A DNA stretch of 64,000 nucleotides, taken from contig NZ_JAHKPH010000016.1 in the NCBI RefSeq assembly GCF_018860385.1, forward strand, positions 124,001 through 188,000. The letters run 5' to 3'. Positions 4,328 through 59,912 of the stretch are shown in pieces (positions within the stretch are counted from its first letter, which is position 1; every line of letters begins with the position of its first letter). Source of the stretch: Reinekea forsetii (GTDB lineage Bacteria; Pseudomonadota; Gammaproteobacteria; Pseudomonadales; Natronospirillaceae). A model generated the notes under the pieces. That model ran no database searches, was not told where the DNA came from, and saw only the letters and a program-made list of their open reading frames with translations. The position numbers were made by a program, and so were the translations under genes.

Positions 4328-4540
4328 TATGGCTGCGAGCTTCGGGCTGCGGGTAGGGTCAAAACATTTTAAACATTCGCGGCTTTGCTTTGCGCGCTCC
4401 TACTTTGGAGAGGTGCTATATGTTAGCCTTGGTGGGTGGCTTTGCTGGAGTGGGAATCTGAGCCATGGATGGCGAGGTTTAGCGGTGCATGGATGCACGA
4501 AAAGCGACCCGCGGAAGTGAAGCCAGCCACCGAGGCGGAG
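4328..4540 (+). repeat. Structured intergenic repeat, copy 1
   Basis: First copy of a dispersed element also present at 4555, 56755, 59341, 59562 and 59779. A leader (TTCGGGCTGCGGGTAGGGTC, then AAAACATTTT and a CTCC-loop-GGAG hairpin) is followed by a core that can fold. The outer helix is 4426-4435 with 4527-4536, with an inner extension GGCTT 4438-4442 with AAGCC 4520-4524. Hairpin A is GCCAT/ATGGC at 4462-4473 and hairpin B is GTGCAT/ATGCAC at 4485-4498. A 63-codon open frame across it looks like a by-product of the repeat. The whole spacer 4242-4935 otherwise holds only copy 2, one hairpin and the rpsU promoter. Confidence 0.75.
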
Positions 4541-4554
4541 ATTGATTTCTGAGT

Positions 4555-4753
4555 TTTAGGCTGCGGGCTGCGAGTTTCGGGGAAGGTCAAAACAATCGCG
4601 GCTTCGCTTTGCTTTGCGCGCTCCTACTTTGGAGAGGTGCTATAGCTAGCCTTGGTGGGTGGCTTTAATCTGAGCCATGGATGGCGAAGTTTAGCGGCGC
4701 AGGATGCGCGAACAGCGACCCGCGGAAGTGAATCCTGCCGCCAAGGTGGGTTG
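4555..4753 (+). repeat. Structured intergenic repeat, copy 2
   Basis: Second, adjacent copy in the same orientation. The leader is shortened, reading GGTCAAAACAATCGCGGCTT. The core has the outer helix 4649-4658 with 4738-4747 (CCTTGGTGG with CCGCCAAGG, one G-T pair). Hairpin A is GCCAT/ATGGC at 4674-4685 and hairpin B is GCGCA/TGCGC at 4697-4709. Compared with copy 1, both arms of hairpin B changed together (GTGCAT/ATGCAC to GCGCA/TGCGC), so pairing is kept. The inner helix is weaker than in the other copies. Confidence 0.75.
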
Positions 4754-4793
4754 TGGGGATGTATTTAAACCCGCCGCCCGAAGCCAGCAGCTC

Positions 4794-4812
4794 GCGAAGC
4801 CAAAGGCTTCGC
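4794..4812. other. Perfect 8-bp hairpin upstream of the rpsU promoter
   Basis: GCGAAGCC, a 3-base loop AAA, then GGCTTCGC. No T-run follows it on either strand and no gene ends here, so it does not look like an intrinsic terminator. It lies 20 bases before the -35 element of the rpsU promoter candidate and could be a protein-binding site or just another repeat remnant. Confidence 0.5.
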
Positions 4813-4831
4813 TCCCTTCCCAACAAAACCC

Positions 4832-4860
4832 TTGCTTCAACCCTGCCCAATCAGTACAAT
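4832..4860 (+). promoter_or_regulatory. Sigma-70-type promoter of rpsU
   Basis: TTGCTT at 4832-4837 and TACAAT at 4855-4860 are separated by exactly 17 bases. The -10 box matches the consensus at 5 of 6 bases and the -35 box at 3 of 6. Transcription would start near 4867, leaving a leader of about 70 bases before the rpsU ATG. It would drive the rpsU-yqeY-dnaG-rpoD block. Confidence 0.6.
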
Positions 4861-4935
4861 TACGCGCCTCGAAAATCGGTTGAACCACGCTTTTTGAGAT
4901 AACCCACATTAATTGGTTCATTTAGGAAATATTGA

Positions 4936-5151
4936 ATGCCACACGTTAAAGTTAAAGATAACGAGCCATTTGACGTAGCACTACGTCGTTTCAAACGTTC
5001 TTGCGAAAAAGCGGGTGTACTTTCTGAAGTACGTCGTCGTGAGCACTATGAGAAGCCAACTTGGGTTCGTCAGCGCGCTAAAGCGTCTGCAGTTAAGCGT
5101 CACCTGAAGAAACTACAGCGCGAAAACAAGCGTTTAGTTCGCCAGTACTAA
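4936..5151 (+). CDS. rpsU: 30S ribosomal protein bS21
   Basis: A 71-residue basic protein of the small ribosomal subunit, needed for efficient initiation at Shine-Dalgarno sites. The sequence ([20 protein letters not shown], then [18 protein letters not shown]) is the standard bS21 sequence at the standard length. AGGAAA lies just upstream of the ATG. It is the first gene of the macromolecular-synthesis block that continues with yqeY, dnaG and rpoD. I see no convincing terminator between rpsU and yqeY, only a weak TTTGTT/AACAAA hairpin at 5156-5175. Confidence 0.98.
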
Positions 5152-5177
5152 TTTCTTTGTTCGTGGGTTAACAAACT

Positions 5178-5624
5178 ATGTCTGAGCTCAAGCAGCGTCT
5201 TAATCAAGCAATGAAAGACGCCATGCGGGCTAAAGATAAGCCTCGTTTAGGTACGATTCGCTTAATTTTAGCCGAGCTCAAACGCATAGAAGTTGACGAA
5301 CAGATTGAAATTGATGATAGCAGAGTACTTGCCGTACTCGATAAAATGAACAAACAACGACGGGATTCCATAGCCCAATTTAAGGCTGCGGACCGCGATG
5401 ATCTTGCCGCGATCGAACTAAATGAACAGGAGGTGATATCTACTTTTCTCCCGGCGGCGATGACAGCAAACGAAATAGCTGACTTAGTTAAAGAAGCAAT
5501 GACAGCAACAAATGCCACTTCAATGGCAGATATGGGCAAGGTAATGGGTTACATTAAGCCTAAAGCTCAGGGTCGAGCCGATATCGGCGAAGTGAGTAAA
5601 CTGATTAAAAAAGCACTCACTTAA
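5178..5624 (+). CDS. yqeY: GatB/YqeY domain-containing protein
   Basis: A 148-residue protein of the GatB/YqeY family (YqeY is related to the tRNA-binding tail of GatB). Family features are LKQRLNQAMKDAMRAKDKPR at the N-terminus, LAELKRIEVDEQ and IAQFKAADRDDLAAIE. The C-terminus carries DMGKVMGYIKPKAQGRADIG. The cellular role is not established; an amidotransferase-like contact with tRNA is suggested by homology only. It lies 26 bases after rpsU and 63 bases before dnaG, its usual place in gammaproteobacteria. No strong Shine-Dalgarno is visible, and a 6-bp inverted repeat sits right before its ATG. Confidence 0.93.
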   Translation: MSELKQRLNQAMKDAMRAKDKPRLGTIRLILAELKRIEVDEQIEIDDSRVLAVLDKMNKQRRDSIAQFKAADRDDLAAIELNEQEVISTFLPAAMTANEIADLVKEAMTATNATSMADMGKVMGYIKPKAQGRADIGEVSKLIKKALT

Positions 5625-5687
5625 ACAGATCGACCACAACACCGCGCGAATTGACGCATTCGTCACCTTTTTCAAGCGAGAAACTGC

Positions 5688-7583
5688 ATGGCTGGTTTGA
5701 TTCCCAATGACTTTATCGAAGAGCTCCAAGAACGCTCTGACATTATTGAAATTATTGGCAACCGAATTGACCTCAAGAAAAAAGGCAAAGACCATTGGGC
5801 CTGCTGCCCATTTCATAACGAAAACTCCCCTTCATTCTCGGTAAATCAAGCCAAAGGCTTTTACTATTGTTTTGGTTGTGGCGCTTCTGGCACCTCACTA
5901 AAGTTTCTTCAAGAATACGAAAACTTAGGCTTTGTCGAAGCCGTTGAAGAGCTCGCGAGACAGGTTGGTGTTGAAGTTCCTCGCGAAGAAGTCAGCGAAA
6001 AAACCAAACACAAGCAACAGCAACGTAAAACACTGCATGACCTAATGGCAAGTTGCTCAGAATACTTTGTGCATCAGCTTTATAATCATCAAGATGCCTT
6101 ACCTGTACAACAATACGCATTAGGCCGAGGCTTAAGCGAAGAGATTATACAAACCTACCAAATTGGCTTCGCCCCTCAGGGCTGGAGCAATCTAATTAAT
6201 CACTTTCGCAGTGATGAAATTACGGGAAAATTGCTGACAGCAGGCATGCTCACGCAAAATGAAAAGGGTCGAACCTATGACCGCTTCCGAAATCGGCTTA
6301 TGTTCCCGATTCGTGACATTCGCGGCCGAGTCATAGCCTTCGGTGGTCGCGTCATGTCGGCCGATGAAAAGCCTAAGTACTTAAACAGCCCAGAAACGCC
6401 CATTTTCCACAAAGGCCAAGAACTGTATGGCCTTTATGAGGCTCGTAAAGCCTTAAAAGACTTTGAAAACATCATAATCGTAGAAGGTTACATGGACGTA
6501 GTGGCCTTGGCGCAACACGGTGTGCGCAATGCGGTGGCAACCTTAGGTACCGCCACCAGCAGCGACCACGTCAAGCGGCTCTTTAAGCTGACACCAGAGA
6601 TTGTGTTCTGCTTTGACGGAGATGCTGCCGGCAAGCGAGCGGCCGAACGCGCTCTAGCTAACACCTTGCCTGAACTGGCCGATGGCCAACAGGCACGATT
6701 CTTATTTTTACCCGACGGTGAAGACCCAGATACCATCGTACGTGAAGAAGGCTTTGAAGGCTTTATGCGCCGCGTCAAGCAATCGCTCACTTTACCTGAC
6801 TTTCTGTTTCAACATTTGCAAACTCAGGCCGACATTTCTCGGCTCGACGGCAAAGCCAAATTGGTGAGCCTTGCCAAGGGATGGATCAACACCGCACCTG
6901 ACGGTATTTTAAAACAACTTTTGATGAAACAGCTGTCCACAATAGTTGGGTTAGAGCTAGAGCAGATCCAGCAATCTTTTGAGCCCGAAGCCCCCATTAT
7001 TGCTGAACCTGAGAACCACGCCCCAGAACCTTACGGTGACTATGGCTATACTGATCCCAGTGGTTATGACGATTACGCTCAATCATATGCGCCGAACACC
7101 ACACAAAATAACAATTTTGCCCGAAAATCAGGACTCACAGTACGCATTGGCTTTGTCCACAGAGCCTTAGCTTGGCTTATTCGCTTCCCCCAGCTTGCGG
7201 TTGAAGTAGATGTCACCAAAGTACACAAGCTACCAGGGCAAGATGGCGGCGCTTTATTGGCCCAAGTAATCGAATTGTTACAAAAAGCCCCAAAACATGA
7301 TGTTTACTTTGCCTTTGACTATTTATGTCAGCATGGTTTACGTGAAATATTGGCGCCAATCGCGTCTTCTGACTATCTTTGGTTAGAAGCTTCGAATGAA
7401 AACCACGACAATGAGTTGATTTTCGCTCGCCAAGAACTTGAAAAAATCATCAGCGCCCTAACCAATAAGGCCCCTGATAATGAATACGACAGTTTAAAAA
7501 AACGCGTAATAGCGTCGGATCCATCCTTAACGGATGAAGAAAAGCAGCGATACCGCGAGCTGCTAAAACAAAAAAAGCAGTAA
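5688..7583 (+). CDS. dnaG: DNA primase
   Basis: DnaG makes the RNA primers for replication. The 631 residues contain an N-terminal zinc-binding domain (C40, H43, C61, C64 in CPFH and YYCFGCG). The catalytic core follows with FRNRLMFPIRDIRGRVIAFG, then a TOPRIM domain with IIVEGYMDVVAL and the metal-binding FCFDGDAAG. The helicase-binding C-terminal domain comes last. Between core and C-terminal domain, around residues 430-475, there is a linker rich in Glu, Pro, Asp, Gly and Tyr, followed by Asn; it looks disordered. It lies in the classic rpsU-dnaG-rpoD order. Confidence 0.98.
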   Translation: MAGLIPNDFIEELQERSDIIEIIGNRIDLKKKGKDHWACCPFHNENSPSFSVNQAKGFYYCFGCGASGTSLKFLQEYENLGFVEAVEELARQVGVEVPREEVSEKTKHKQQQRKTLHDLMASCSEYFVHQLYNHQDALPVQQYALGRGLSEEIIQTYQIGFAPQGWSNLINHFRSDEITGKLLTAGMLTQNEKGRTYDRFRNRLMFPIRDIRGRVIAFGGRVMSADEKPKYLNSPETPIFHKGQELYGLYEARKALKDFENIIIVEGYMDVVALAQHGVRNAVATLGTATSSDHVKRLFKLTPEIVFCFDGDAAGKRAAERALANTLPELADGQQARFLFLPDGEDPDTIVREEGFEGFMRRVKQSLTLPDFLFQHLQTQADISRLDGKAKLVSLAKGWINTAPDGILKQLLMKQLSTIVGLELEQIQQSFEPEAPIIAEPENHAPEPYGDYGYTDPSGYDDYAQSYAPNTTQNNNFARKSGLTVRIGFVHRALAWLIRFPQLAVEVDVTKVHKLPGQDGGALLAQVIELLQKAPKHDVYFAFDYLCQHGLREILAPIASSDYLWLEASNENHDNELIFARQELEKIISALTNKAPDNEYDSLKKRVIASDPSLTDEEKQRYRELLKQKKQ

Positions 7584-7710
7584 ATAGGTTAGCAAAGCCT
7601 GAAAATCACGTTTTAGTTTGAGCATCGCTCGTTGGCTAACCTGTTGATTTAATATACACTATCCGGCTATTTGCTTGCGTAACAACCACTTAATTGCTTA
7701 CAGGTAACCT

Positions 7711-9552
7711 ATGGCTGAAAAATCTCAGCGACAGTCTCGTTTAAAAGAACTGATCGCCAAAGGTAAAGAACAAGGCTTCCTTACTTTTGCCGAAGTAAAC
7801 GATCACCTACCCGAGGAGATTAACTCTCCCGATCAGGTAGAAGATATCATTGCAATGATCAACGATATTGGCATTGAAGTATTTGAAACGGCACCGGATG
7901 CCGATCAACTTGCCTTAGCTGACAGTAAAGATACCGATGACGACGCAACCGAAGAAGCTGCAGCTGCATTGGCCGCCGTTGAAACTGATACCGGCCGCAC
8001 AACAGACCCTGTTCGCATGTATATGCGTGAAATGGGCACCGTTGAGCTTTTGACCCGAGAAGGTGAAATTGTCATCGCTAAGCGTATCGAAGAAGGTACG
8101 CGCGAAGTCATGCAAGCAATGGCGTATTACCCTGGCGTTATCAAAGATATCATCGGCGCTTATGAAACCACTCAAAGTGAAGAAGAAGGCACAGGCCGTC
8201 TATCTGACATCTTGACCAGTTTCCAAGACCCAGACGACGAAGATCCGTTACCGGCGGCCGACTCTCCCGATGCAGTCAAAGAAGAAGACGAAGCAGTGGA
8301 AGAAGTTGAAGATGATTCCGATGACGAAGATGAAGTTGATAATGGTCCAGACCCTGAACTAGCCCGTGAACGTTTTACGTTGCTTTCAGAGCAGCTAGCA
8401 ACCTTAGAAAGCATCATCGAAGAAAAAGGTCGCTATTGCAAAGAAGCCAATGAAGCGCTAATTGCCATGGGTGAAAACTTTTCTTGCTTTAAGCTTACGC
8501 CTAAAGCGTTTGAAGAATCTATATCGCCGATCAAATCTGCTGTTGCTGAAATTCGCGATCAAGAACGCCGCATCATTCAAATTTGTGTTCGTACGTTAAA
8601 AATGCCAAGAAAACAGTTTATTGAATTGTTTGTAGGCCGCGAAACCGAAGATGAATGGTTGAATACAGTATTAGAAGATCCACAGTTTGCTGAAGAAGCG
8701 TTCCGCTACGAAGTTGAATTGCGTCGTGCACAGCGTAAAATGCGCAACATTCAAAAAGCAACGGGTATCACGCTTGGCGAAATCAAAGATATCCACCGTC
8801 GTATTTCTATTGGTGAAGCGCGCGCGCGTCGTGCCAAAAAAGAAATGGTTGAAGCGAACTTACGTTTGGTTATTTCTATCGCTAAGAAATACACCAACCG
8901 TGGTTTACAGTTCCTTGATTTAATCCAAGAAGGCAACATTGGCTTAATGAAAGCCGTGGATAAGTTTGAATACCGTCGTGGTTATAAGTTCTCTACTTAT
9001 GCCACCTGGTGGATTCGTCAGGCAATTACACGCTCAATTGCCGACCAAGCTCGTACCATCCGTATTCCTGTTCACATGATAGAGACGATTAACAAGCTTA
9101 ACCGTATCTCTCGCCAAATGTTGCAAGAAATGGGTCGTGAAGCAACGCCAGAAGAACTGGCTGAGCGTATGGACATGCCTGAAGATAAGATTCGCAAGGT
9201 TTTAAAAATCTCTAAAGAGCCTATCTCGTTAGAAACGCCAATCGGCGATGACGAAGACAGCTCATTAGGAGATTTCATCGAAGATACCACAATGGATGCA
9301 CCGATTCACTCAGCCACATCAACCGGCCTACGTGATGCAACCAAAGAAGTTTTAGCGGGATTAACCGCCCGTGAAGCAAAGGTATTAAGAATGCGCTTTG
9401 GTATTGAAATGAATACCGACCACACCTTAGAAGAGGTAGGCAAACAGTTCGATGTAACGCGTGAGCGTATTCGTCAGATTGAAGCGAAGGCACTTCGAAA
9501 GCTTCGCCACCCTTCTCGCTCAGACCATCTACGCAGCTTTATCGACGAATAG
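7711..9552 (+). CDS. rpoD: RNA polymerase sigma factor RpoD (sigma-70)
   Basis: The primary sigma factor, 613 residues. Region 1.1 is at the N-terminus and region 1.2 reads [21 protein letters not shown] very acidic stretch (about residues 170-215, Asp/Glu-rich) lies in the non-conserved region. Region 2 has [39 protein letters not shown] and [15 protein letters not shown]; region 3 follows. Region 4 has the helix-turn-helix [20 protein letters not shown]. The length matches other gammaproteobacterial RpoD proteins. The 127-base gap from dnaG has no obvious terminator. An intrinsic terminator follows directly, so this gene ends the block. Confidence 0.99.
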
Positions 9553-9571
9553 TCGAAGCCTCTGCGTTAAG

Positions 9572-9600
9572 AAAAGCCCAGCAATTGCTGGGCTTTTTTA
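9572..9600 (+). terminator. Intrinsic terminator after rpoD (bidirectional)
   Basis: GCCCAGC (9576-9582), loop AATT, GCTGGGC (9587-9593), followed by six T on this strand and preceded by AAAA. On the other strand the A-run becomes a T-run, so the same hairpin could also end the converging PLP-enzyme gene that stops at 9626. Confidence 0.9.
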
Positions 9601-9625
9601 TTGGAAACCATTTCGCCAGCTCGCG

Positions 9626-10915
9626 CTAACTTACCAAGACTTTAAATGCATTGGATAAATCAGCAATCAAATCTTCTGGGTGTTCTAATCCAATAGACAA
9701 TCGAATCAACCCTTCTTCAATGCCAACGTCTTTACGCACTTCTTCGGGAACACCGGAGTGCGTTGTAGAGGCTGGGTGGCTCACCAATGATTCGGTGCCC
9801 CCTAAGCTGACAGCAGATTTGAACAACACCAGAGCGTTGATAAATTTAAAGGCCTTTGTTCTTGGTGCATCCAACACAAATGAAAAAGTTGAACCTGGAC
9901 CGCTGCATTGTTTAGCGTAAACGGTTTGGTATAACTCATCTTCAATCAGATTCGGGTGCAACACCTTAACCTTCATGTATGGGTTGTTGGCCAACCACTG
10001 AGCTATTTTTAGGCCGGTTTCTGCTTCTCTTTGCATGCGAATTGACAAGGTCTCCAACGACCGTGAAATCATCCAACAAGTATGAGGATCTGAATTTAGC
10101 CCCATACAATTACGGATGGTTCTAACCGCTTTAATCGTGTCGCCATTACCACACACTGCGCCAGCAACGAGGTCACTGTGCCCTCCAACATATTTGGTCA
10201 AGGAGTATACAGCTAAGTCAATTCCACGAGGAACAACCTGTGAAAATATAGGCCCCATCAGAGTGTTATCGATCGCCGTCAACGGTCGCTTGCCCTGTTC
10301 GGCTTCAATCAGGTTCGCGGTTTTTACAATGAGATCTATGTCGATTAACGCATTGGTTGGATTACCTGGTGACTCAGCAAAGATCATCGCTATTGGTCCA
10401 AGCGACTTAGCCTCTTCAACAGCGGCCATAATAGAGGCTTCGCTGCAACCATCATGAAACTCTACCAGCTGTATACCAAACTCTGTCATGATATTGCGAA
10501 ACATAACCTCTGTGCCGCCGTAGAGCGGCGAGCTGTGCATCAACACATCACCAGGCCGCAATGTCGAAAGTAGTGTGGCCGTTATCGACCCCATGCCACT
10601 GGCGCAAACAACGGCTTCCTCAGAGCCCTCTAACAACGCTAAACGGTCTTCCACCATCTCTACGTTAGGTTGATTGAATCGAGAATAGATAAGCCCCGCA
10701 GACTCACCTTCTGGGACGGATTTTCTACCCGATGCAACGTGAAAAAATTCTTCGCCGGCTTCGGCGGTTGGGTAGCTGAAAGTTGACGTTAGGAAAACAG
10801 GTGGCTTAACAGCCCCTTCAGATAAGTCGGAATCGTAACCGTAGGACATCATTAACGATTCAGGGTGAAGCTCGTGTTCACCAATTCGTTTTTTGGCGTT
10901 TATTATTTTTTTCAT
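9626..10915 (-). CDS. Cystathionine gamma-synthase family PLP-dependent enzyme
   Basis: A Cys/Met-metabolism PLP enzyme of about 430 residues. Typical stretches are YSRFNQPNVEMVEDRLALLE, VCASGMGSITATLLSTLRPG, FAESPGNPTN and the PLP-binding lysine in YSLTKYVGGHSD. The C-terminus has SLGGTESLVSHPASTTHSG. Cystathionine gamma-synthase, cystathionine lyase and methionine gamma-lyase share these features, so the exact reaction cannot be fixed from sequence alone. Two starts are possible, ATG 10915 and ATG 10927, with no Shine-Dalgarno for either. TATAAT lies at 10928-10933 on this strand, which would give a very short or leaderless mRNA; I therefore prefer 10915. Confidence 0.88.
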   Translation of the reverse strand: MKKIINAKKRIGEHELHPESLMMSYGYDSDLSEGAVKPPVFLTSTFSYPTAEAGEEFFHVASGRKSVPEGESAGLIYSRFNQPNVEMVEDRLALLEGSEEAVVCASGMGSITATLLSTLRPGDVLMHSSPLYGGTEVMFRNIMTEFGIQLVEFHDGCSEASIMAAVEEAKSLGPIAMIFAESPGNPTNALIDIDLIVKTANLIEAEQGKRPLTAIDNTLMGPIFSQVVPRGIDLAVYSLTKYVGGHSDLVAGAVCGNGDTIKAVRTIRNCMGLNSDPHTCWMISRSLETLSIRMQREAETGLKIAQWLANNPYMKVKVLHPNLIEDELYQTVYAKQCSGPGSTFSFVLDAPRTKAFKFINALVLFKSAVSLGGTESLVSHPASTTHSGVPEEVRKDVGIEEGLIRLSIGLEHPEDLIADLSNAFKVLVS

Positions 10916-11062
10916 TGCGCATACCAAATTATAAGGGAAATTCAGTATGCGCCTATTCTATTGACTAATTGTAGCTAATAAAGTGAATTTACCTTCACAC
11001 ATTAGTTCAAAACATCAAAATAAATAATAATTTAGCATAATATGCTACTTGTGCCGTGTTGT

Positions 11063-11803
11063 TTACTTTTTAGATTGATCCACCATCAAATCATCTAAAG
11101 GCAAGTGAGTAAGCTTCTTTAGCTGAGTGAATAAGTACCACATGGCAAACCCTAAAACGACCATGCTTGGGATTACGATGACAGGGTAACTGAGCGCTGT
11201 CATTCGACCCAACTCTTCTGCGAACTCAGTGGTTCCCGGTGCGCTTTTTAAAACTATTTTAGCCAAAATATAATTCAATGCCGAAGAGACAAAAAATGAC
11301 GCTGCAACAAGATAAGTTACTATCGTCATCTTTTGCTCAAACACTTTCTCATTATCATGTTCAGCTAACGAGCTGTGCACTCGATCTAACCGAAAAATTT
11401 GGTCGTTAAACAAGATAAGTTTGACCACCGATTTATGAGATTTTTGGGAGATAATCACCGCCAAGCCTATGAGCCCAGGAATAGCCGCCTCTTTGATGGC
11501 AATGTATTTTGGGTCTAGCTGCAATAAACTGATACCACCCGTCAACAAAACGCTGACAACGCCTAATACCGAAAACCCATTCACCTTTTTAGTCAGCCGC
11601 ATTTCCCAAATACCGTACCCCACCGGGAAAGCGAGAGCGACAGCAATGCTATATAGTGGGCCTAACATATCATCGCCACTCAGCTTTGACATGATCAGTA
11701 CAGGAAGCACAATATTAAACATTAGGTTGCTAAAAAAGCCGCCCTGCTTAGCTTTTGCTGGCTTTGCTGCTTCCTGTGCAGGTGAATTATCGCTATGATC
11801 CAT
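11063..11803 (-). CDS. VC0807-type integral membrane protein
   Basis: A 246-residue polytopic membrane protein. A short, charged, Ala/Lys-rich N-terminus precedes about six hydrophobic segments. Family-like stretches are NIVLPVLIMSKLS, LAFPVGYGIWE, SVLGVVSVLLTGGISLLQLD and EAAIPGLIGLAVIISQKS. This matches what I know as the VC0807 family, of unknown function, distantly similar to intracellular septation protein A. It is monocistronic and divergent from trmK. Confidence 0.7.
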   Translation of the reverse strand: MDHSDNSPAQEAAKPAKAKQGGFFSNLMFNIVLPVLIMSKLSGDDMLGPLYSIAVALAFPVGYGIWEMRLTKKVNGFSVLGVVSVLLTGGISLLQLDPKYIAIKEAAIPGLIGLAVIISQKSHKSVVKLILFNDQIFRLDRVHSSLAEHDNEKVFEQKMTIVTYLVAASFFVSSALNYILAKIVLKSAPGTTEFAEELGRMTALSYPVIVIPSMVVLGFAMWYLFTQLKKLTHLPLDDLMVDQSKK

Positions 11804-11869
11804 CTTTAAGTTACCTTACTTCTGTTTAGGCGACACTTTACCTTAATTTTTTGAATTCGGCACGACTCA

Positions 11870-12583: not shown

Positions 12584-12596
12584 TGCAATCTCATAT
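12568..12596 (+). promoter_or_regulatory. Sigma-32 (heat-shock) promoter of ibpA
   Basis: CCTTGAAA at 12568-12575 contains the complete -35 consensus CTTGAAA. TCTCATAT at 12589-12596 matches the -10 consensus CCCCATNT at 6 of 8 positions, with a 13-base spacer within the normal range. It lies over the last codons of trmK, and transcription would begin near 12603, about 112 bases before the ibpA start. Confidence 0.65.
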
Positions 12597-12610
12597 TTAG
12601 ATTAGCGACG

Positions 12611-12712: not shown

Positions 12713-12714
12713 CT

Positions 12715-13164: not shown

Positions 13165-13176
13165 TACGATACACAA

Positions 13177-13203
13177 GAACCTCTAGGGTAACTCTAGAGG
13201 TTC
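13177..13203. terminator. Hairpin between convergent ibpA and acetyltransferase genes
   Basis: GAACCTCTAG (13177-13186) and CTAGAGGTTC (13194-13203) form a perfect 10-bp stem with a 7-base loop, between two genes that converge. Neither side has a clear T-run, so termination is likely but not certain. Confidence 0.5.
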
Positions 13204-13212
13204 CATTAAGCT

Positions 13213-46770: not shown

Positions 46771-46772
46771 CG

Positions 46773-51613: not shown

Positions 51614-51617
51614 GCGG

Positions 51618-52163: not shown

Positions 52164-52233
52164 TAAGCTCAACCTTTAGCGCGTGAAACTGTAAACTGTC
52201 GGTTATTGTAACCGATCTCAACACAGAGCGCGC

Positions 52234-53259
52234 ATGAGTAAACGAAAACTATCTCGACAACAGCAATTTCGCATCGACAAAGTCCAGCAAGAACGCCTTG
52301 CGCGAGCGCAAAAGAAAGACCAAAAAATAGAACAAGCCTTTGCAACCGATCAACTCGGCAAACCGCGTCAAGGGTTAGTGATTGCTCACTTCGGCGCAAC
52401 TTTAGATATTGAAGGCGAAAACGGCGAAATAACACGCTGTTCGGTGCGCAGCAACCTACCTGTGTTGGTCACGGGCGATAAAGTGATTTGGCACGCCGAT
52501 GAGAAAGGCGAAGGTCAAGGAGTTATAGTCGCACTTCAAGAACGCCAATCAATTCTTACTCGCCCAGATTACCGCGGTAAACTGCGACCCGTGGCCGCCA
52601 ATGTCGATCGCATTATTATCGTTGCGTGCCCATCACCCCGCACGCCAGTAAATTTGATAGACCGTTATCTTGTAGCCACGGCACACGACGACATTCAGCC
52701 CGTTATCTTGCTCAACAAACACGATTTAATTGACCAAGCCCCTGAAATGCTTGAAGAGTTAAAACAATACGAAGACCTTGGCTGCATCACCTTAATTGCC
52801 AGTATTCACAATGAAGAAGAGCTTGCTGCCATTAAAACGTTAGTCGCAGAAGGTAACTCTGTCTTTGTCGGGCAATCGGGTGTGGGTAAATCTTCAATCA
52901 TATCCGCACTCTTGCCAGGGGAAGATATTCGCGTCGGTGAAATATCAGAAGCCACCGGCAAAGGCCGACACACCACCACCACGGCTAAAATTTATCACAT
53001 TCCCAGCGGCGGACAGCTCATCGACAGCCCCGGTATACGCGAATTTGGCTTGTGGCACATTACCGAAGAAGACTTAGACAAAGGCTTCCCAGATGTCACC
53101 GAACACTCACACTACTGCAAGTTTAATAATTGCACTCATACACACGAACCCAAATGCGCGGTTAAAATAGCCGTTGAAAACGGAGAGTTGCTTGAGCGCA
53201 GGTTAAACAGCTACTTAGCCATTCGTGATTCGATAGACGAAGTCACCATGCGAACCTAA
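52234..53259 (+). CDS. rsgA: Small ribosomal subunit biogenesis GTPase RsgA
   Basis: A circularly permuted GTPase that helps mature the 30S subunit. The 341 residues include an N-terminal basic tail and an OB-fold. The G motifs appear in permuted order: G4 LLNKHDLI, G1 FVGQSGVGKSSIISALLPGE, then the G2 region GRHTTTTAKIYHI and G3 IDSPGIREFGLWH. The C-terminal zinc domain has HYCKFNNCTHTHEPKCAVK. The length is standard. It is divergent from orn and precedes the gene at 53278. Confidence 0.97.
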   Translation: MSKRKLSRQQQFRIDKVQQERLARAQKKDQKIEQAFATDQLGKPRQGLVIAHFGATLDIEGENGEITRCSVRSNLPVLVTGDKVIWHADEKGEGQGVIVALQERQSILTRPDYRGKLRPVAANVDRIIIVACPSPRTPVNLIDRYLVATAHDDIQPVILLNKHDLIDQAPEMLEELKQYEDLGCITLIASIHNEEELAAIKTLVAEGNSVFVGQSGVGKSSIISALLPGEDIRVGEISEATGKGRHTTTTAKIYHIPSGGQLIDSPGIREFGLWHITEEDLDKGFPDVTEHSHYCKFNNCTHTHEPKCAVKIAVENGELLERRLNSYLAIRDSIDEVTMRT

Positions 53260-53277
53260 ACTGTACCGAGGGAGACT

Positions 53278-53802
53278 ATGAGCCAATCTTCAGAGCCAGC
53301 AATAGAGGCAGAGAGCCAAACTGGCGTTATTCAATTAGATTCCATCGCAGGTTTTATCAACCAATCAACACCGTTAATTGATGCAGGTTTGCGCAGCATT
53401 AATATCATCAGCCAAGACCTAAACCGCCCTTGGCTCGGCAACGAAGCCGTAGTTTCAGCACTTAAGCAATTTATACTGACTAATCGCCGAGCCCAAATGA
53501 AATTACTCATTGCACAAACTACCCATGCATTAAATACCGACCACCCAATGGTGCCACTTATTAAAAAGTTATCCCGAATAGAAGCCAGAATCATCGAACC
53601 AGAAATACTCGAAAAAGAGCCGATTAACTGCGAATTTATATTGGTAGACAGAGGAGGCGTGGTAATACGACAAAAATTAGACAACTACATTGGCTTTGCA
53701 CATACAGATGATAAAACCACGGTAAAGAGCCTGCAATCGAGCTTTGATCAGTATTGGCGATACAGCCAACCATCACCAGAGTTGCGATACTTTTCGATAT
53801 AA
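53278..53802 (+). CDS. Conserved RsgA-adjacent protein (DUF7931-like)
   Basis: A 174-residue soluble protein. IIKLDS-like start motifs (VIQLDSIAGFINQSTPLIDA), then IISQDLNRPWLGNEAVVSAL, MKLLIAQTTHALNTDHPMVP and FILVDRGGVVIRQKLDNYIG, give the alternating pattern of proteins annotated as DUF7931 or histone-acetyltransferase-associated, with a phospholipase-D-like fold. No HKD motif is present, so PLD activity is unlikely. The function is unknown. It begins 18 bases after rsgA with GGGAGAC upstream. Confidence 0.6.
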   Translation: MSQSSEPAIEAESQTGVIQLDSIAGFINQSTPLIDAGLRSINIISQDLNRPWLGNEAVVSALKQFILTNRRAQMKLLIAQTTHALNTDHPMVPLIKKLSRIEARIIEPEILEKEPINCEFILVDRGGVVIRQKLDNYIGFAHTDDKTTVKSLQSSFDQYWRYSQPSPELRYFSI

Positions 53803-53804
53803 GA

Positions 53805-54140
53805 TTATCGAGTTTGAACTCGATTCATGTAGCGAACATCATTTTTGAAGGTTATCAATGAATCACCAAAGCGATAATGAAACGATAATCGAATTAACGA
53901 CGGCGCTGCGCGGCAAAGATCTGGTTTTATTTGGCGTAACGTCACTTTATCGCCCTTCACCAACAAATAAAAATCATCTTCCGTAGTACAACCATGAGAC
54001 ATCACAGACACCTCAACTCGATCACTGAACACAACCGGGTTTAGTAGCAAAGGCACCGAATAATCGCGACCCGACAAGGTACTGCACCCTGCCGAAAACA
54101 CAACTATTAGCGAACATAAAAAAAGCTTGAATTTAGCCAC
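53805..54140 (-). CDS. Small lipoprotein coupled to the protease gene
   Basis: A 111-residue lipoprotein: an N-terminal hydrophobic stretch ends in VVFSAGCST, with a lipobox Cys. The mature part has two more Cys ([10 protein letters not shown] and [10 protein letters not shown]) that could form a disulfide. I do not know the family. The start is GTG 54140 and overlaps the end of the protease gene by 8 bases, so the two are translationally coupled. A role as chaperone, inhibitor or anchor for the protease is possible but not shown. Confidence 0.75.
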
Positions 54141-55251
54141 GTCGTCGCCCAGCCCATAACAATCCCGCTAACGCTATCATGCCGAACATCGGTAACGAGC
54201 CAGCGCCCAAACGACTCACCTGACCATCAGAATTACGAGTGGTGTCTGCATTAAGATCCATCGATAAACTGCCCTCATTAATCCAATCGCGCAAGTTATA
54301 GACGTTCGAATAAACACCATAAGCATTCGCACTATTAATACCACACTGAGATGGCCCCCAACTAACCACCCCCAACAAAGTATCGGTATCAGGATCAATC
54401 AACGGACCACCACTGTCACCCTGACAAGAGTCGTATCCTGGGTCTCCTGCACAAATCATCGTAAAAGCATCAAAATTGTTACCAATATTCGAGTTATTAC
54501 ATTCTTGTACGGTACGAGGTGTGAGATCAACATCGAGCAATTGAGCGCTGGCCGAAAATGTCGCATCGTTGTTATCACTTAACGTATCACCATGACCAAT
54601 AACTTGTACTTTAGAAGAAGTATTTTTCGCTAAATGATCGAATAAATCCATGGTCGGTAACGCCAGAGACGGCTTATTTGAAACCTGAGGCAAATGCAAA
54701 ATAGCAATGTCATATTCAAGCGTTGCACTGTTATAAAGTGGGTGAACTTCTATATTTTCAGAGGGTATTTCGATAGGTGTTTCACTGCCCGTGTAAATCG
54801 TATAACCCGTAAAGTGGTACCCTATTGGTTCAGCTTCTTTTGAATCTTCTCCAATACAATCATAAGGAACTAAGCCCTTATCTTTACAAAACTCATATTG
54901 CATACCCTTACCCGTGGTTACATTTGAGTAATCACCGATCAGCAAATGTACCGAAGCGCCAGCGGGATAACCATCAACACAATGGGCCGCAGTCACCACC
55001 TTGCCGCCACCTATATGGCTAGCACCACAAAAAGCATTCCAACTATATCCAGCAGAGTTACCTGGGCTCGCGTATGACTTGCCATCTGCCCAGTTATAAA
55101 CCCTAAGTAACGCGACAAAATATTCATGCTCATTAGCAGCCGTAGCCGAACCATTAATGATACGTGGCGCAATACCGCGTTCACCGAACGAATCATCCAC
55201 AGCAAATGCAAATAACGGTAAACATAAAATAAAAGCGAAGAGTTTATTCAA
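54133..55251 (-). CDS. Trypsin-like serine protease with GlyGly-CTERM tail
   Basis: A 372-residue secreted S1 protease. The signal peptide (to about LFAFAVDD) is followed by [20 protein letters not shown]. The catalytic triad is in [19 protein letters not shown] and [15 protein letters not shown]. The C-terminus has a Gly-Ser patch, a hydrophobic segment ([14 protein letters not shown]) and a final AGRRRG. This is the GlyGly-CTERM layout, whose processing by a rhombosortase delivers proteins to the cell surface. No rhombosortase gene is in the window. Confidence 0.92.
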
Positions 55252-55621
55252 ATGATCGGCCTCAACTAGTCAGAATTTAATCCTAACTCAAGGATTCAAA
55301 TCATGCGAATTTTAGGTCCTATTTTTATGAAGTTCGTCAAAGAAATGGCGGTGTTTGTCTATTGCTGCGGGCATCGTGTTGCGGCTTAGGTCAAAACATT
55401 CGCGTCTCCGCTCCACTTCGAACGCGCCTGCAACTTAGCGCGGTCTCTTCATTGTAGGAGTCTTCGGAACGAAGTGGAGAGACGAATGTTTTTGAATATG
55501 CTGTTTGATTTAGATTTTGTCATTTCTTAGATATTTCTTACTAATAACTCGATCTAGGTCATGTATTTGGAAGGCTGTTAGGTTAACCTTTAAAATAACA
55601 TCCGCATTTTAAACTTTAACT
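55252..55621. repeat. Spacer with degenerate repeat leader and imperfect inverted repeat
   Basis: A 370-base non-coding spacer. 55364-55435 is a degenerate copy of the leader of the structured repeat (GGTCAAAACATTCGCGTCT) without a core. An imperfect inverted repeat pairs CATTCGCGTCTCCGCTCCAC (from 55397) with CGAAGTGGAGAGACGAATG (55470-55488). 55452-55485 is nearly identical to 59177-59210 (34 bases, 2 differences). I see no gene and no clear promoter for the GNAT gene that follows. Confidence 0.6.
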
Positions 55622-56104
55622 ATGTTTGAATTTAAGACAATTGACCCCTCTCTCGATCGGAGTATTTGTATTGAGCATCGACTTGATGCCTATATTTGTA
55701 CCCACGGAAATAGTGATGGATTTCTGAGCCAGATTGGAGGCGAACAGGGTGATGAGTATATAAGCCGCCTTGAAAAGAGAATCAGTCAAATTCCACAAGG
55801 CAATTGCCTTTGCTATTTCAACGATCAATTAGCGGGACAACTGGAAATGAAATGGCATGAAAGCCCAAACGTTGGCTATGTTAATTTATTTTACTTGCGT
55901 CCAGAATATAGAGGTGTTGGTTTTGGCCGAATGCTACATGATAAAAGCATTGATATTTTTCATACATTGGGGGCAGATTCATTGTTACTCAGTGTCGGGA
56001 AAAAGAATAGGAAAGCAAAAGCATTTTATGAAAAACTCGGTTGGCATAATTTAGGAACTCGATCGGATAAACCATACGCCGAGCTTTATGAGTTTAGAAT
56101 TTAA
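55622..56104 (+). CDS. GNAT family N-acetyltransferase
   Basis: A 160-residue GNAT enzyme with the acetyl-CoA-binding segment LFYLRPEYRGVGFGRMLHDK and the terminal FYEKLGWHNLG. The middle part LCYFNDQLAGQLEMKWHESP is typical of the fold. The substrate is unknown. Its 3' end overlaps the converging GNAT gene by 4 bases. Confidence 0.87.
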   Translation: MFEFKTIDPSLDRSICIEHRLDAYICTHGNSDGFLSQIGGEQGDEYISRLEKRISQIPQGNCLCYFNDQLAGQLEMKWHESPNVGYVNLFYLRPEYRGVGFGRMLHDKSIDIFHTLGADSLLLSVGKKNRKAKAFYEKLGWHNLGTRSDKPYAELYEFRI

Positions 56105-56595
56105 GACTCTGTAATTTGAACAGACGCACTTAACCGGTGATTGCCCATCCAATACACCATCGGCTGAAAGGTACTATCCTTATACAAAAAGGCATTGGCT
56201 GATTTTCTGAATCCTAGTTTTTCATATACTGGTACAGCATATTCCGTTGAAGTCAGCTCAATGTAATCAACAGAGTCATCAACTTCTAATTTTGCAGCAT
56301 CAAATAATTTCCTCGCTATTCCCTTACCGTTTTCCTCAGGACTAACGAATAAGTAAGCGAGTTTTCTTTTCGAAGAAAACAAAATCACACCAGAAATACA
56401 GCCATCAACTGTACATTTCAAACAAATATTATCGTTGTCGATCAACGACTCTAACTTATCTACAGCAAGGTCTTTCGTGTAAAACACCTCTATCGCGGTT
56501 GGCGACCAAGAAGCTTTCACATAAGTTTCAAACGAAGCTTTGATTACAGTGATGGCTTCTGCAAGATCACTTTTTAAGAGTGGTTTAATCTTCAT
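56101..56595 (-). CDS. GNAT family N-acetyltransferase
   Basis: A 164-residue GNAT enzyme: FETYVKASWSPTAIEVFYTK, LAYLFVSPEENGKGIARKLF with the acetyl-CoA loop, and YAVPVYEKLGFRKSANAFLY. The pattern fits the broad acetyltransferase family with the ending MVYW-MG (PMVYWMGN) seen in many members. The substrate is unknown. It is tail-to-tail with another GNAT of different sequence, so it is not a recent duplicate. Confidence 0.87.
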   Translation of the reverse strand: MKIKPLLKSDLAEAITVIKASFETYVKASWSPTAIEVFYTKDLAVDKLESLIDNDNICLKCTVDGCISGVILFSSKRKLAYLFVSPEENGKGIARKLFDAAKLEVDDSVDYIELTSTEYAVPVYEKLGFRKSANAFLYKDSTFQPMVYWMGNHRLSASVQITES

Positions 56596-56754
56596 GTTAT
56601 TCAGTCGCTATGGGTTTATTCTTTTTAATGGGCGTTTGAATTCAGAGTATAACTTCTATTTGGTGGTTGGTAGAGGGGAACGGTTTAGAGCTGTGGTAAT
56701 TAAGCGGCCAGTTCATAGCTGCAAGCTGGGTCAAAGCATTTAAAAGTGGTTGGT

Positions 56755-56965
56755 TTTAGGCTTCGGGCTGCAAGTAAGGTCAAAACATTTAAACCATCGC
56801 GTCTTCGCTTTGCTTCGAGCGCTCCTACTTGAATTTGTTAGTGATTATTAGCTTTGGGTGTGGGTTTCACTGGAGTGGGCATCGTAAGCCATGGATGGCT
56901 AAGTTAAGCGGTGCAAGGATGCACGAACAGCGACCCGCGGAAGTGGAACGCGCCACCGAAGCGAA
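56755..56965 (+). repeat. Structured intergenic repeat, copy 3
   Basis: It lies in the 56596-57057 spacer, which holds no gene. Leader from 56757 (TTCGGGCTGCAAGTAAGGTC). Core: outer helix GCTTTGG (56851-56857) with CCGAAGC (56956-56962), inner helix GTTTCACT (56864-56871) with AGTGGAAC (56942-56949). Hairpin A is GCCAT/ATGGC (56888-56899) and hairpin B is GTGCA/TGCAC (56911-56924). Leader fragments without core flank it on both sides (56709-56745 and 56973-57010). The spacer also contains the run-in to aacS. Confidence 0.75.
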
Positions 56966-57057
56966 GAAAAAGCGGCCAGTTAAAAGCCGGAGGCTGGGCC
57001 AAAGGTTAGACTGATGGACTAACCTTTGACTGCTTAAGCTTGCTATTTTGAAAATAA

Positions 57058-58992
57058 TTAAGCCAAGTACTTTGCTTTGATCGCTTCGTACTCTTCTAAG
57101 CATTCAGCATTTGCCATGGCCGTTGTATTTTTGGGTGTATCACCCCGTAAGATTTGAGTTACGGCTAGTTCCACTTTTTTACCTGAGCGAGTATAGGGGA
57201 TATCTGTTACCGCAAAGATATGTTTTGGAACGTGTCTCGGAGTGGTGTTTTCGCGGATACGCTGTTTGATGGCTTTAATCAACGTATCATCAAGCTCAGT
57301 CGGTGAGTTGAGTTTTACGAATAAAACGACTTCTACATCATTATCGGTTTGATGACCCACCACTAGCGAATCAGTGACTTGTTCTATAGTTTCCACCTGG
57401 CGATAAATTTCAGCGGTGCCAATTCTCACGCCACCTGGATTTAGTGTGGTATCACTTCGTCCAAGAATAACGACTTGGCCCTGCTCATCTATTTCGCAAA
57501 AATCACCTTGTGCCCAAACATTGTCGAATCGCTCAAAGTAAGCGCTTTTATAGCGCGACTTATCAGGGTCATTCCAGAACCCTATGGGCATGCATGGGGC
57601 GGGTAAACGGCACACCAATTCACCACGTTGGTTTAAGATAGATTCACCTTCATCGCTCCAAGACTCTACAGCCATACCTAAGTTAGCGGCTTGTATCTTA
57701 CCTTTGACTACGGGTGACCAGGGGTTGCCACCGACAAAACACGACACAATGTCTGTACCACCTGAAATAGAGTGCAACATGACATCGGATTTAACTTCAT
57801 CGTATACCCAATCGAAGTCTTCTGGTGACAGAGGCGAGCCAGTGGAAAACACCACACGTAAAGCGTCTAAATTGTTTTCTTTCGGAGCAACGCCTAACTT
57901 TTGACAAGCGCTCAGATACTTAGCACTGGTGCCAAAGTGAGTCACCCGGTACTTTGAAGCCAACTCCCATAGCACCGACTCGGTTGGGTACATCGGGTTG
58001 CCATCAAAAATTATAAGAGTCGCACCTGTCACTAAGCCAGAGGCAAGCCAATTCCACATCATCCAACCGGTCGTGGTGAAATAGAAAAAAGTCGACTCTT
58101 TGGATATATCACCGTGTAAACGTAGCTCTTTAATATGCTGAAGCAAAGTACCGCCAGCACTGTGAATAATACATTTAGGCTTACCTGTGGTACCCGATGA
58201 ATAAAGCACAACCAATGGGTGGTCAAACGGAAACTCAACAAGCTCTGGCGCAGCACGGTTTTGCTTAAATATATCCTCTAGCTCTGTAGCACGTTCAATG
58301 CTCGCAATACTAGGCACCACAGAAACATTGATCGTTTGCCGTATAGAAGGCACCGAAGCACGCAATTGATCGACAACCTCGCGACGATCAAATAGTTTTC
58401 CGCCATAACCGTAGCCATTACCCGCCAACAACACCACCGGCTCAACCTGACCAAGCCGATCAAAGACACCTTCATAGCCAAAATCAGGCGAGGCTGATGT
58501 CCAAATAGCGCCCAAGTAAGTGGTCGCCAGCATACCTATTAGCGCTTCCTGAGTATTACCAATATAACCGGCCACAACGTCTTTAGGTTGTACACCACAC
58601 TCTTGCTGAAGATAGGCCGCCAACTGCATCACGCTTTCTCGCAGCTGCTTATAGCTAATCTCTTGTGCTTCACGAGATTCACTCACCGCAACAATGGCGT
58701 TTCTATCGTTTTCACCATGGTGCAGTAAATTATTGGCGAAATTCAGCTTAGCGTTAGGAAACCACTTCGCATCAGGCATTTGCGCATGCCCTAAAACAAC
58801 ATCACCCGCAGACCCTTGGACATCGCCGAAATCCCAAACAGCCTGCCAAAACTCGCTGAGATTATTAATACTGTAGTGATGAAGGGCGCTGTAATTGTAA
58901 TCAAAAGCTTGAGCATCGAAACGTTTGGCAAAATCACTCAACTGGGTTTGTTCCATTTGAGACTGAGACGGACGGAATAGTATTGTCGACAT
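57058..58992 (-). CDS. aacS: Acetoacetate-CoA ligase
   Basis: An ANL-superfamily synthetase of 644 residues that activates acetoacetate to acetoacetyl-CoA with ATP. The N-terminal part HAQMPDAKWFPNAKLNFANN is of the acetoacetyl-CoA synthetase type. The phosphate-binding loop is LVVLYSSGTTGKPKCIIHSA and the adenylate motif region reads ISGGTDIVSCFVGGNPW. The C-terminal domain carries GRSDTTLNPGGVRIGTAEIY and the catalytic Lys in YTRSGKKVELAV. This points to use of ketone bodies or polyhydroxybutyrate. It is monocistronic, framed by repeats. Confidence 0.95.
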   Translation of the reverse strand: MSTILFRPSQSQMEQTQLSDFAKRFDAQAFDYNYSALHHYSINNLSEFWQAVWDFGDVQGSAGDVVLGHAQMPDAKWFPNAKLNFANNLLHHGENDRNAIVAVSESREAQEISYKQLRESVMQLAAYLQQECGVQPKDVVAGYIGNTQEALIGMLATTYLGAIWTSASPDFGYEGVFDRLGQVEPVVLLAGNGYGYGGKLFDRREVVDQLRASVPSIRQTINVSVVPSIASIERATELEDIFKQNRAAPELVEFPFDHPLVVLYSSGTTGKPKCIIHSAGGTLLQHIKELRLHGDISKESTFFYFTTTGWMMWNWLASGLVTGATLIIFDGNPMYPTESVLWELASKYRVTHFGTSAKYLSACQKLGVAPKENNLDALRVVFSTGSPLSPEDFDWVYDEVKSDVMLHSISGGTDIVSCFVGGNPWSPVVKGKIQAANLGMAVESWSDEGESILNQRGELVCRLPAPCMPIGFWNDPDKSRYKSAYFERFDNVWAQGDFCEIDEQGQVVILGRSDTTLNPGGVRIGTAEIYRQVETIEQVTDSLVVGHQTDNDVEVVLFVKLNSPTELDDTLIKAIKQRIRENTTPRHVPKHIFAVTDIPYTRSGKKVELAVTQILRGDTPKNTTAMANAECLEEYEAIKAKYLA

Positions 58993-59340
58993 AGGCGCTT
59001 AAATTCTGTTTATTGTTGTTGCTGTTAGGGTACCGAGCACAGCGGTAATGACAAGATCTGTTTTTGAAAAAAGAAGGGGTTGGGTGTCAGCAATTCGTAC
59101 CAGTTTTTTTGAGCTGCAAGTTAATAGCTTCAAGTTTCAAGTATGGTCAAAAGAGGGTTTGTGCTGATAATTGCACTTGTAGGAGTCGTCGGAACGTAGT
59201 GGAGAGACGATTTTATAGATTTGAGAAGTTTTGGGTTGAGGGGGAAAAGCTGCAAGCTGCAAGCTGCAAGCTGCAAGACAAGATCAAATCGCCGTCGCTT
59301 TTGAAATTCAATGATGATTGGCGAATTTTTTTGGGTTATT
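58993..59340. repeat. Spacer with simple repeats and leader fragments
   Basis: No gene is visible. 59111-59153 is a leader-like fragment (GCTGCAAGTTAATAGCTTCA), similar to 59925-59960. 59177-59210 repeats 55452-55485 with two differences. 59247-59274 is four perfect tandem copies of the heptamer AAGCTGC, a likely slippage site. It is the left part of the 1-kb repeat block between aacS and the purL-side genes. Confidence 0.65.
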
Positions 59341-59552
59341 AAGTGCGGCTTTTGGTTTCGGGCTGCGGGTCAGGTCAACACATTTCGCGTCTTCGCTTTG
59401 CTTCGAACGCTCCTACTTGGGAGTGGTGTTGGTGATTAGCTTTGGTGGTGGGTTTCACTGGAGCGGGCATCTGAGGCATGGATGCCGAAGTTTAGCGGCG
59501 CACGGAGGCGCGAACAGCGACCCGCGGAAGTGGAACGCGCCACCGAAGCGGG
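59341..59552 (+). repeat. Structured intergenic repeat, copy 4
   Basis: A complete copy. Leader from about 59355 (TTTCGGGCTGCGGGTCAGGT). Outer helix GCTTTGGTGG (59439-59448) with CCACCGAAGC (59540-59549), inner helix GTTTCACT (59452-59459) with AGTGGAAC (59529-59536). Hairpin A is GGCAT/ATGCC (59475-59486) and hairpin B is GCGC/GCGC (59498-59511). Hairpin A has both arms changed relative to copies 1-3. Confidence 0.8.
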
Positions 59553-59561
59553 TTTTAGTGA

Positions 59562-59778
59562 ACCAGTTTTAGGCAATGAGCTGCGGGTAAGGCCAAAATA
59601 TTTAAACCATCTCGGTTTCGCTTTATTTCGCGCGCTCCTACTTGGGAGTGGTGTTGGAGACTAGCTTTGGTGGTGGGTTTCACTGGAGCGGGCATCTGAG
59701 GCATGGATGCCGAAGTTTAACGGCGCACGAAGGCGCGAACAGCGACCCGCGGAAGTGGAACGCGCCACCGAAGCGGGA
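59562..59778 (+). repeat. Structured intergenic repeat, copy 5
   Basis: A complete copy. Outer helix 59664-59673 with 59765-59774, inner helix 59677-59684 with 59754-59761. Hairpin A is 59700-59711 and hairpin B is 59723-59736, whose loop differs by one base from copies 4 and 6 (ACGAAG against ACGGAG). The two helices are otherwise identical to copy 4. Confidence 0.8.
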
Positions 59779-59912
59779 ATGTGGTGTTGGAGACTAGCTT
59801 TGGTGGTGGGTTTCACTGGAGCGGGCATCTGAGGCATGGATGCCGAAGTTTAGCGGCGCACGGAGGCGCGAACAGCGACCCGCGGAAGTGGAACGCGCCA
59901 CCGAAGCGGGAA
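59779..59912 (+). repeat. Structured intergenic repeat, copy 6 (core-only tandem duplicate)
   Basis: It repeats the core of copy 5 with a period of 133 bases and lacks the leader. Outer helix 59797-59806 with 59898-59907, inner helix from 59810 with 59887-59894. Hairpin A is 59833-59844 and hairpin B is 59856-59869. A leader fragment without core (59920-60005) follows up to the next gene, so a leader-core-core-leader array resulted. Confidence 0.8.

Follow-up and report, generated by a model that had tools for sequence, protein, structure and literature searches.

The window analyzed here, a 64,000-nucleotide (nt) stretch of Reinekea forsetii DNA, contains six copies of a structured intergenic repeat with a unit of ~114 nt, two hairpins of which carry loops matching the recognition element of the RNA-binding regulator CsrA. 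An earlier note on this DNA had placed all six copies on the + strand and between genes, and both a direct-repeat search and a covariance model recover them there. Its first five start positions fall 93–101 nt upstream of the structured unit because a module that we take to resemble repetitive extragenic palindromic (REP) elements precedes the unit and was included with it; the sixth (59779) lies 17 nt upstream. The structured copies are given below with their scores under R1, a covariance model built only from the window's genome, using 30 distinct copies found by BLAST.

4425..4538, + strand: structured copy 1, with outer helix, inner helix, and two hairpins bearing C-AUGGAU-G hexaloops, between two divergent genes; 127.8 bits
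4648..4749, + strand: structured copy 2, without an inner helix owing to 11 missing nt and with AGGAU as the hairpin B loop; 78 bits
56850..56964, + strand: structured copy 3, at a site that is empty in G057, the second genome of the species; 117.6 bits
59438..59551, + strand: structured copy 4, the first in a three-copy array; 136.9 bits
59663..59776, + strand: structured copy 5, hairpin B loop ACGAAG, without GGA; 134.2 bits
59796..59909, + strand: structured copy 6, identical in sequence to copy 4, with no REP-like module ahead; 136.9 bits

Fold, covariation, and strand sense

The fold consists of a 20-pair outer helix, a 3x3 internal loop (GGA/GGA), a five-pair inner helix, hairpin A with a flanking GA/AG step, and hairpin B; in copy 2 the 5' arm of the inner helix falls within the 11 missing nt (alignment A1). 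RNA folding z-scores for the six window copies range from -2.8 to -7.2 (-7.19 for copy 1 and -2.76 for copy 2), so their fold is not due to chance. The paired arms change together as the earlier note had described: in the alignment, the hairpin A arms are GCC/GGC in copies 1–3 and GGC/GCC in copies 4–6, the hairpin B arms are GTGC/GCAC in copies 1 and 3 and GCGC/GCGC in the others, and the change from C-G to T-A in the outer helix falls at columns 4/111 of alignment A1, where copy 2 likewise has C-G.

Alignment A1 holds the 30 distinct copies from the window's genome, taken from 32 usable rows out of 35 extracted (one non-element, one sequence with an N, and one truncated copy were dropped). 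In it 95.9% of cells are paired, against 89.9% after shuffling, and 59 cells are double-changed, against 18.1. Among 56 cross-genome model matches (52 distinct), which include some antisense or weak ones, there are 637 double-changed cells compared with 183.5 when shuffled and 90–143 when the alignment is slid. For a tree-based null we kept 116 of 123 rows and then 102 members below 93% identity; with this null, which is our own rather than that of R-scape, comprises 30 null sets, and uses an alignment fitted to the model and thus favoring the structure, 34 column pairs are significant, 30 within the structure, three extending the same helices, and one outside. The four structure pairs without support are two near-invariant loop-closing pairs, the mostly gapped pair 61-74, and pair 34-53, which is variable.

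Support for 30 of the 34 base pairs of the structure bears out the earlier proposal that selection acts on structure rather than on coding. Based on gene calls from our own hexamer script, the 42 clusters in the window's genome overlap genes by 30 nt at most, and the AUG present in some loops is not kept, as AAGGAU, AGGGAU, and AGGAU loops also occur; both observations agree with a non-coding element.

In relatives the sequence of the outer helix is almost wholly different while the pairing is kept. At loci L294–L322 (genomes G359, G294, and G241) the outer arms are 20–30 base pairs (bp) long and near perfect; within one genome their inner part is often common, and their outer part differs from copy to copy and is still paired. 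Such unique, near-perfect arms suggested that arms are created de novo at insertion, an idea we dropped given the inner arm sequence common to copies of the same genome. The nearly perfect outer arms of distant genera, up to ~30 bp with little common sequence, would also be expected if the repeat had no function and its palindromes were kept perfect by template-switch hairpin correction, so that the covariation reflects mutation rather than selection. Template switching should produce double changes and no excess of G-U, and is disfavored because 24 within-species copy pairs show 65 single changes against five double changes, with G-U favored over A-C. It also leaves the conserved loops unexplained, and we regard this already disfavored explanation as very improbable.

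The mismatches in the stems indicate which strand is selected. From 100 model matches in the window's genome we kept 74 copies (antisense shadows and one weak match were dropped), of which 70 are full length and 68 distinct; the stems of these 68 contain 1952 Watson-Crick, 204 G-U, 14 A-C, and 93 other cells. The 30 BLAST-found copies have 100 G-U against 7 A-C cells, compared with 122 and 31 after column shuffling, so the make-up of the columns accounts for part but not all of the excess. In 42 sequences from several genomes, retained from the 56 cross-genome matches, the counts are 70 and 9, compared with 162 and 124 when shuffled. On the tree, one-sided changes from Watson-Crick to G-U outnumber those to A-C by 36:4 on internal and 40:12 on terminal branches (76:16 in total, p 1.6e-10). 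The underlying transition classes are balanced (69:65 on internal and 67:63 on terminal branches), hence mutation bias is not the cause of the G-U excess. When copies of the two conspecific genomes are matched one to one, the 24 resulting pairs differ by Watson-Crick/G-U in 31 cases and by Watson-Crick/A-C in 11 (p 0.003), and the 22 pairs at ≥90% identity give 24:8.

In addition, the sense strand folds more stably than its complement in all 68 own copies and in 97 of 102 family members. Because G-U far outnumbers A-C in the stems and the sense strand is the more stable, one strand of fixed sense is under selection, most simply as RNA, although a single DNA strand would show the same. The earlier note had allowed either RNA or cruciform DNA; a single strand of fixed sense stands, and the cruciform is disfavored by the ratio of G-U to A-C and by the asymmetry of folding.

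CsrA-like loops and related RNA families

Across the 102 non-redundant members, the least variable parts of the repeat are two A-N-G-G-A-N hexaloops closed by C-G. This motif, in which one N may be missing, is found in hairpin A of 101 members, in hairpin B of 96, and in both of 95. The key A, G, G, and A are each present in 98–102 of the 102 in both loops, the closing C in 98 (hairpin A) and 97 (hairpin B), and the closing G in 100 and 98, while neighboring pairs covary. The N positions are unconstrained in hairpin B, where loop position 2 is T in 63, G in 26, A in five, C in three, and a gap in five. Both loops fit ANGGAN, again with one N allowed to be missing, in 57 of the 68 own copies. 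The hairpin B loop is one base shorter in 18 of the 68, and 16 of these loops are AGGAU, which with its closing pair is the CsrB repeat motif. The GGA-to-GGA distance is 24 nt, counted in alignment columns. According to PMC7652899, CsrA/RsmE recognizes an ANGGAN hexaloop, and a single dimer can bridge two sites 10–63 nt apart; the repeat has this hexaloop, with a closing C-G, and two sites within this spacing. The window's genome encodes a CsrA (PF02599 match, E 1.3e-25). The two CANGGANG loops had been overlooked in the earlier note.

A search of the window against Rfam at the gathering thresholds yields no matches. The closest family is TwoAYGGAY (RF01731, gathering threshold 43 bits), which scores 27.5 bits, below that threshold, at locus L071 of the window's genome. 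It is above the cut-off in three of 19 genomes, a set that includes the window's genome (no match there), and in none of 14 controls. R1 coincides with RF01731 at four of eight RF01731 loci (L031, L032, L034/L062, and L035), two of which, L031 and L032, exceed the Rfam threshold. Both gathering-level hits of a second RF01731 search also coincide with R1, at L054 and, weakly (E 0.0067), at L056. The wider family matches RF01731 at E≤1 in four of 18 loci, with L270 reaching 39.7 bits, and is over the threshold in none of 20. Homology to accepted RF01731 members is indicated by these shared positions, and judged by them the repeat is what we would call a divergent relative of TwoAYGGAY, TwoAYGGAY-like in a broad sense, with the window copies forming an outlying branch. 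Clan CL00106 is the CsrA-binding clan.

The consensus of TwoAYGGAY resembles the repeat in its long outer helix, its pair of hairpins with CAYGGAYG loops, and the GCGUC motif that follows the second of them. The repeat differs in length (114 versus 168 positions), in hairpin B, which often has the five-base loop AGGAU, and in occurring as dozens of tandem-amplified copies; multi-copy dispersed behavior is not mentioned for TwoAYGGAY in the accessible portions of PMC2864571, where the family is listed in a table, and PMC4333381. The earlier note knew of no described function for such repeats, which does not hold for these relatives, since a CsrA-binding role was predicted for RF01731 in 2014 (PMC4333381). 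The available literature on the family name or on CsrA-linked repeats contains no description that we could find of the family as a dispersed repeat. What is already known is thus a candidate RNA family with a published functional guess, CsrA binding. What is new is a dispersed, tandem-amplified, lineage-specific repeat with sites that vary between species and strains and outer arms that change in sequence yet stay paired.

Other known systems share some of these features. The decoy RNAs CsrB, CsrC, RsmX, RsmY, and RsmZ also display GGA hexaloops closed by C-G at a CsrA-bridging distance, but are single genes with many sites each, whereas each copy of the repeat offers two sites and the genome contains tens of copies. 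The model RF00166 (PrrB_RsmZ) has no match in the window's genome, the models for CsrB, CsrC, RsmX, and RsmY not having been run genome-wide. In Pseudomonas putida, the RNAs that RsmA, RsmE, and RsmI all bind in vivo include a long palindrome located downstream of PP_3547 as well as the flanks of ISPpu8 (PMC7937890); these Rsm-bound palindromic intergenic regions resemble the repeat in kind and may or may not belong to its family.

A further set of matches involves the Rfam family Ysr224 (Yersinia sRNA 224, a small RNA), which matches the antisense strand of L265, L270, L286, L288, and L290 at 23–32 bits, with a threshold of 70; Ysr224 may be an annotated transcript running antisense to a relative of the repeat. 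Many microRNA models match the long hairpin by shape alone, so sub-threshold matches of this type count for little.

The interpretation that we hold most likely, with moderate confidence and from the loop signature and fold, is that the repeat acts through RNA, clamping a CsrA dimer as a decoy or a tether. Each copy would encode a structured RNA module of ~114 nt and of the TwoAYGGAY kind, in which the outer and inner helices lock a junction from which the two hairpins project, each with a C-ANGGAN-G hexaloop. With 24 nt from GGA to GGA, the two loops would be placed for both RNA-binding faces of one CsrA/RsmA dimer. Multiplied as a dispersed and locally tandem repeat, the module could, wherever a copy is transcribed, hold a CsrA dimer, acting in trans as a decoy, many copies together forming a distributed sponge; alternatively, it may tether CsrA to the transcript that carries the copy. 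Transcription, CsrA binding, titration, and the seeding of new copies are steps that we infer.

A number of observations weigh against a CsrA-clamping RNA. In the minimum-energy fold of copy 1 the loop regions pair with each other, and 11 of the 68 own copies lack at least one intact loop. Changes at the key loop positions map to one internal and nine terminal branches of the tree, and, since they are mainly terminal, some resident copies are decaying. The hairpin A loop was part of the pattern used to retrieve loci L104–L183, so that its conservation there is partly imposed, while hairpin B is unaffected. RF01731 has no match in the window, nor any at E≤10 on 59300–60020 or 59425–59565, and R1 has none at the remaining four of the eight RF01731 loci (L033 and L036–L038). 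Single changes that disrupt pairing number 30 in the within-species comparison (11 A-C and 19 of other kinds), compared with 31 that lead to or from G-U, and singleton letters in the 68 own copies show no G-U bias (three G-U and six A-C, a small count). There is no promoter-like excess beside window copies 1–2 (1 versus 0.4 expected) or 4–6 (0 versus 0.4). Finally, of 33 single-strand clusters between genes in the window's genome, 14 point the same way as the gene downstream and 19 the opposite way; between tandem genes, the sense and antisense counts are 7 and 13 in this genome and 7 and 17 in others. The lack of a sense bias in gene orientation, like that of a promoter-like excess, speaks against simple read-through transcription.

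For the other genomes, context was taken from crude open reading frame (ORF) calls on 62 copies, paired copies not being independent; 48 were judged and 14 overlap a crude ORF of ≥80 amino acids, and the G123 copies, L270, L271, L282, L291, and two weak matches were set aside. There the 3' end of the downstream gene faces the element in 35 cases versus 13, and only six of the 48 sites are divergent, which would suit a 3'-end or RNA-stability element, such as a terminator or a blocker of antisense transcription, whose CsrA-like loops are incidental. However, no intrinsic terminator (a GC-rich stem followed by a T run) was found around window copies 1–2 and 4–6, the 3'-end preference is slight in the window's genome (the 19 versus 14 above), and conservation is highest in the loops, which a terminator can do without. 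Consequently, we think such an element quite unlikely.

Distribution, site variation, and movement

A BLAST search of the window's genome with the core gives 43 matches and R1 at least 64 (65 candidates scored). Over the window and 34 fetched stretches R1 identifies 74 copies, and three more occur in later stretches (L374, L376, and L378), for at least 77. The 74 copies form the 42 clusters, often of 2–4 in tandem ~200 nt apart, with several at contig ends. The second genome of the species, G057, has 70 copies (72 matches minus two antisense shadows). R1 has matches in 18 of 57 genomes, the window's included, and R2 in 76 of 369 Gammaproteobacteria genomes (68 of 272 genera) and in 35 of 398 genomes of the phylum, all 35 of them Gammaproteobacteria, the number of genomes from outside the class among the 398 not being stated. 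Genome searches scoring 9, 10, or 65 candidates per genome are lower bounds; in one genome, 149 of the 150 candidates scored are matches. Of five other Reinekea species, one has nine R1 copies and four have none, one of these four (G005) containing 12 RF01731 matches. The expansions are lineage-specific.

Many long intergenic palindromes of gammaproteobacteria lack a known function, and for one widespread class of them, present in the 76 genomes above, a candidate ligand can now be proposed. If CsrA is indeed the ligand, a repeat family rather than one small RNA gene would set CsrA availability, repeat number per strain would constitute regulatory variation, and the palindromic intergenic RNA in the P. 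putida Rsm pull-downs could be explained (PMC7937890).

The adjoining features in the window are as follows.

4378..4403, + strand: REP-like module upstream of copy 1, from a repeat search (family D3) and reading by eye
4597..4627, + strand: REP-like module upstream of copy 2, from a repeat search
56798..56828, + strand: REP-like module upstream of copy 3, from a repeat search
59386..59416, + strand: REP-like module upstream of copy 4, from a repeat search
59611..59641, + strand: REP-like module upstream of copy 5, from a repeat search
56702..56736, + strand: left 35-nt direct repeat (family D9) bounding copy 3 and its module; this segment is single in G057, which has no copy there
56970..57004, + strand: right 35-nt direct repeat (family D9) bounding copy 3

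The insert between window genes 3210–4259 and 4936–5151, presumably tsaD and rpsU, occurs in none of the five other Reinekea species and is present, arranged differently, in G057. Copy number at orthologous sites often differs between the two conspecific genomes, for example 4/2, 1/3, 3/1, and 1/0, the last at window 56850, and five further sites have a copy in one genome only (L072, L080, and L099 in G000; L236 and L259 in G057). L087 was dropped as an empty site, as its right flank alone matches G057. Four sites can be compared cleanly (window 56850, L080, L088, and L236); the differences there are bounded by repeats of 12, 35, 83, and 137 nt, including GCTGCRR heptad tracts, with no fixed short target-site duplication. 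Gain and loss of units by recombination fits these strain differences, since they are bounded by repeats of 12–137 nt. GCTGCAA/GCTGCGG heptads flank arrays and persist at copy-less sites (window 59245–59281 and 56702–56736; L080, L088, and L236), and the heptad-flanked arrays look as if they expand and contract between tracts.

Sense sequence lies on the lagging strand for 29 of 39 clusters on contig C1 of G057 (39 of 42 clusters judged) and for 71 of 119 copies on contig C1 of G304 (119 of 133 listed positions scored; 149 matches found), replichore borders being set by eye from GC skew. The bias is clear in G057, where it extends to clusters between convergent or divergent genes (13 of 17), and weaker in G304.

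A mobile non-autonomous element, as raised in the earlier note, is plausible in view of the site empty in five congeners and of the sites and array sizes that differ between the genomes of the species; no Y1 transposase is present in the window's genome. One version of this idea is a DNA element with hairpins that a transposase recognizes in single-stranded DNA, in the way that Y1/REP-associated tyrosine transposases (RAYTs) recognize REP elements; pairing would persist since a copy that cannot fold does not move. The dispersed, species-specific expansions with varying sites and array sizes, the REP-like module ahead of five of the six window copies, and the replication-strand preference (29 versus 10 clusters in G057, 71 versus 48 listed copies scored in G304) are in its favor, and REP elements are likewise intergenic palindromic repeats. 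However, the structured core is longer and more RNA-like than REP, and Y1_Tnp (PF01797) has no match in the window's genome, which is 98.5% complete, so REP/RAYT was rejected as the current mover. Nor is there a short target-site duplication at the four comparable sites. In G057 the sense sequence is that of the nascent lagging strand, the lagging template exposing the less stable antisense strand, and the strand exposure of IS200/IS605 elements is opposite to this bias. As to a miniature inverted-repeat transposable element, which has terminal inverted repeats in common among copies and a short target-site duplication, the arms of the repeat pair but differ between subfamilies, and repeats of 12–137 nt bound the four strain differences. 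As transposition of DNA would also leave the C-ANGGAN-G loops unexplained, we consider it unlikely to be the basis of the conserved fold.

Spread on plasmids or phages was rejected: one member has no match among plasmids and phages at E 1e-3, relaxed limits giving only short, weak matches, and two exact patterns have none among viral contigs.

The CsrA-clamping module and the variation in copy number may also be combined, more tentatively, into a picture in which the repeat, selfish or domesticated, spreads through chromosomes in the role of a CsrA/RsmA ligand. Copies numbering from tens to well above 100 would then form a joint sponge that determines how much CsrA is free, the strain-variable copy number would tune a global regulator, and CsrA binding may protect or aid the repeat. 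We find this possible though doubtful.

Arrangement varies between genera and subfamilies. Saccharospirillum and its genus-mates (L059, L061, L126, L128, L143, and L152) have head-to-head pairs (- then +) with starts 157–365 nt apart, unlike the window's Reinekea genome, where same-strand tandem arrays prevail. Four closely similar inverted pairs of other subfamilies occur near contig ends of G000 (L098, L100, L101, and L102) and perhaps adjoin a larger repeat such as ribosomal RNA operons. The window also contains a second, two-copy repeat, TTGTAGGAGTCKTCGGAACGWAGTGGAGAGACGA, at 55452–55485 and 59177–59210, the copies of which are 94% identical and lie outside the structured core.

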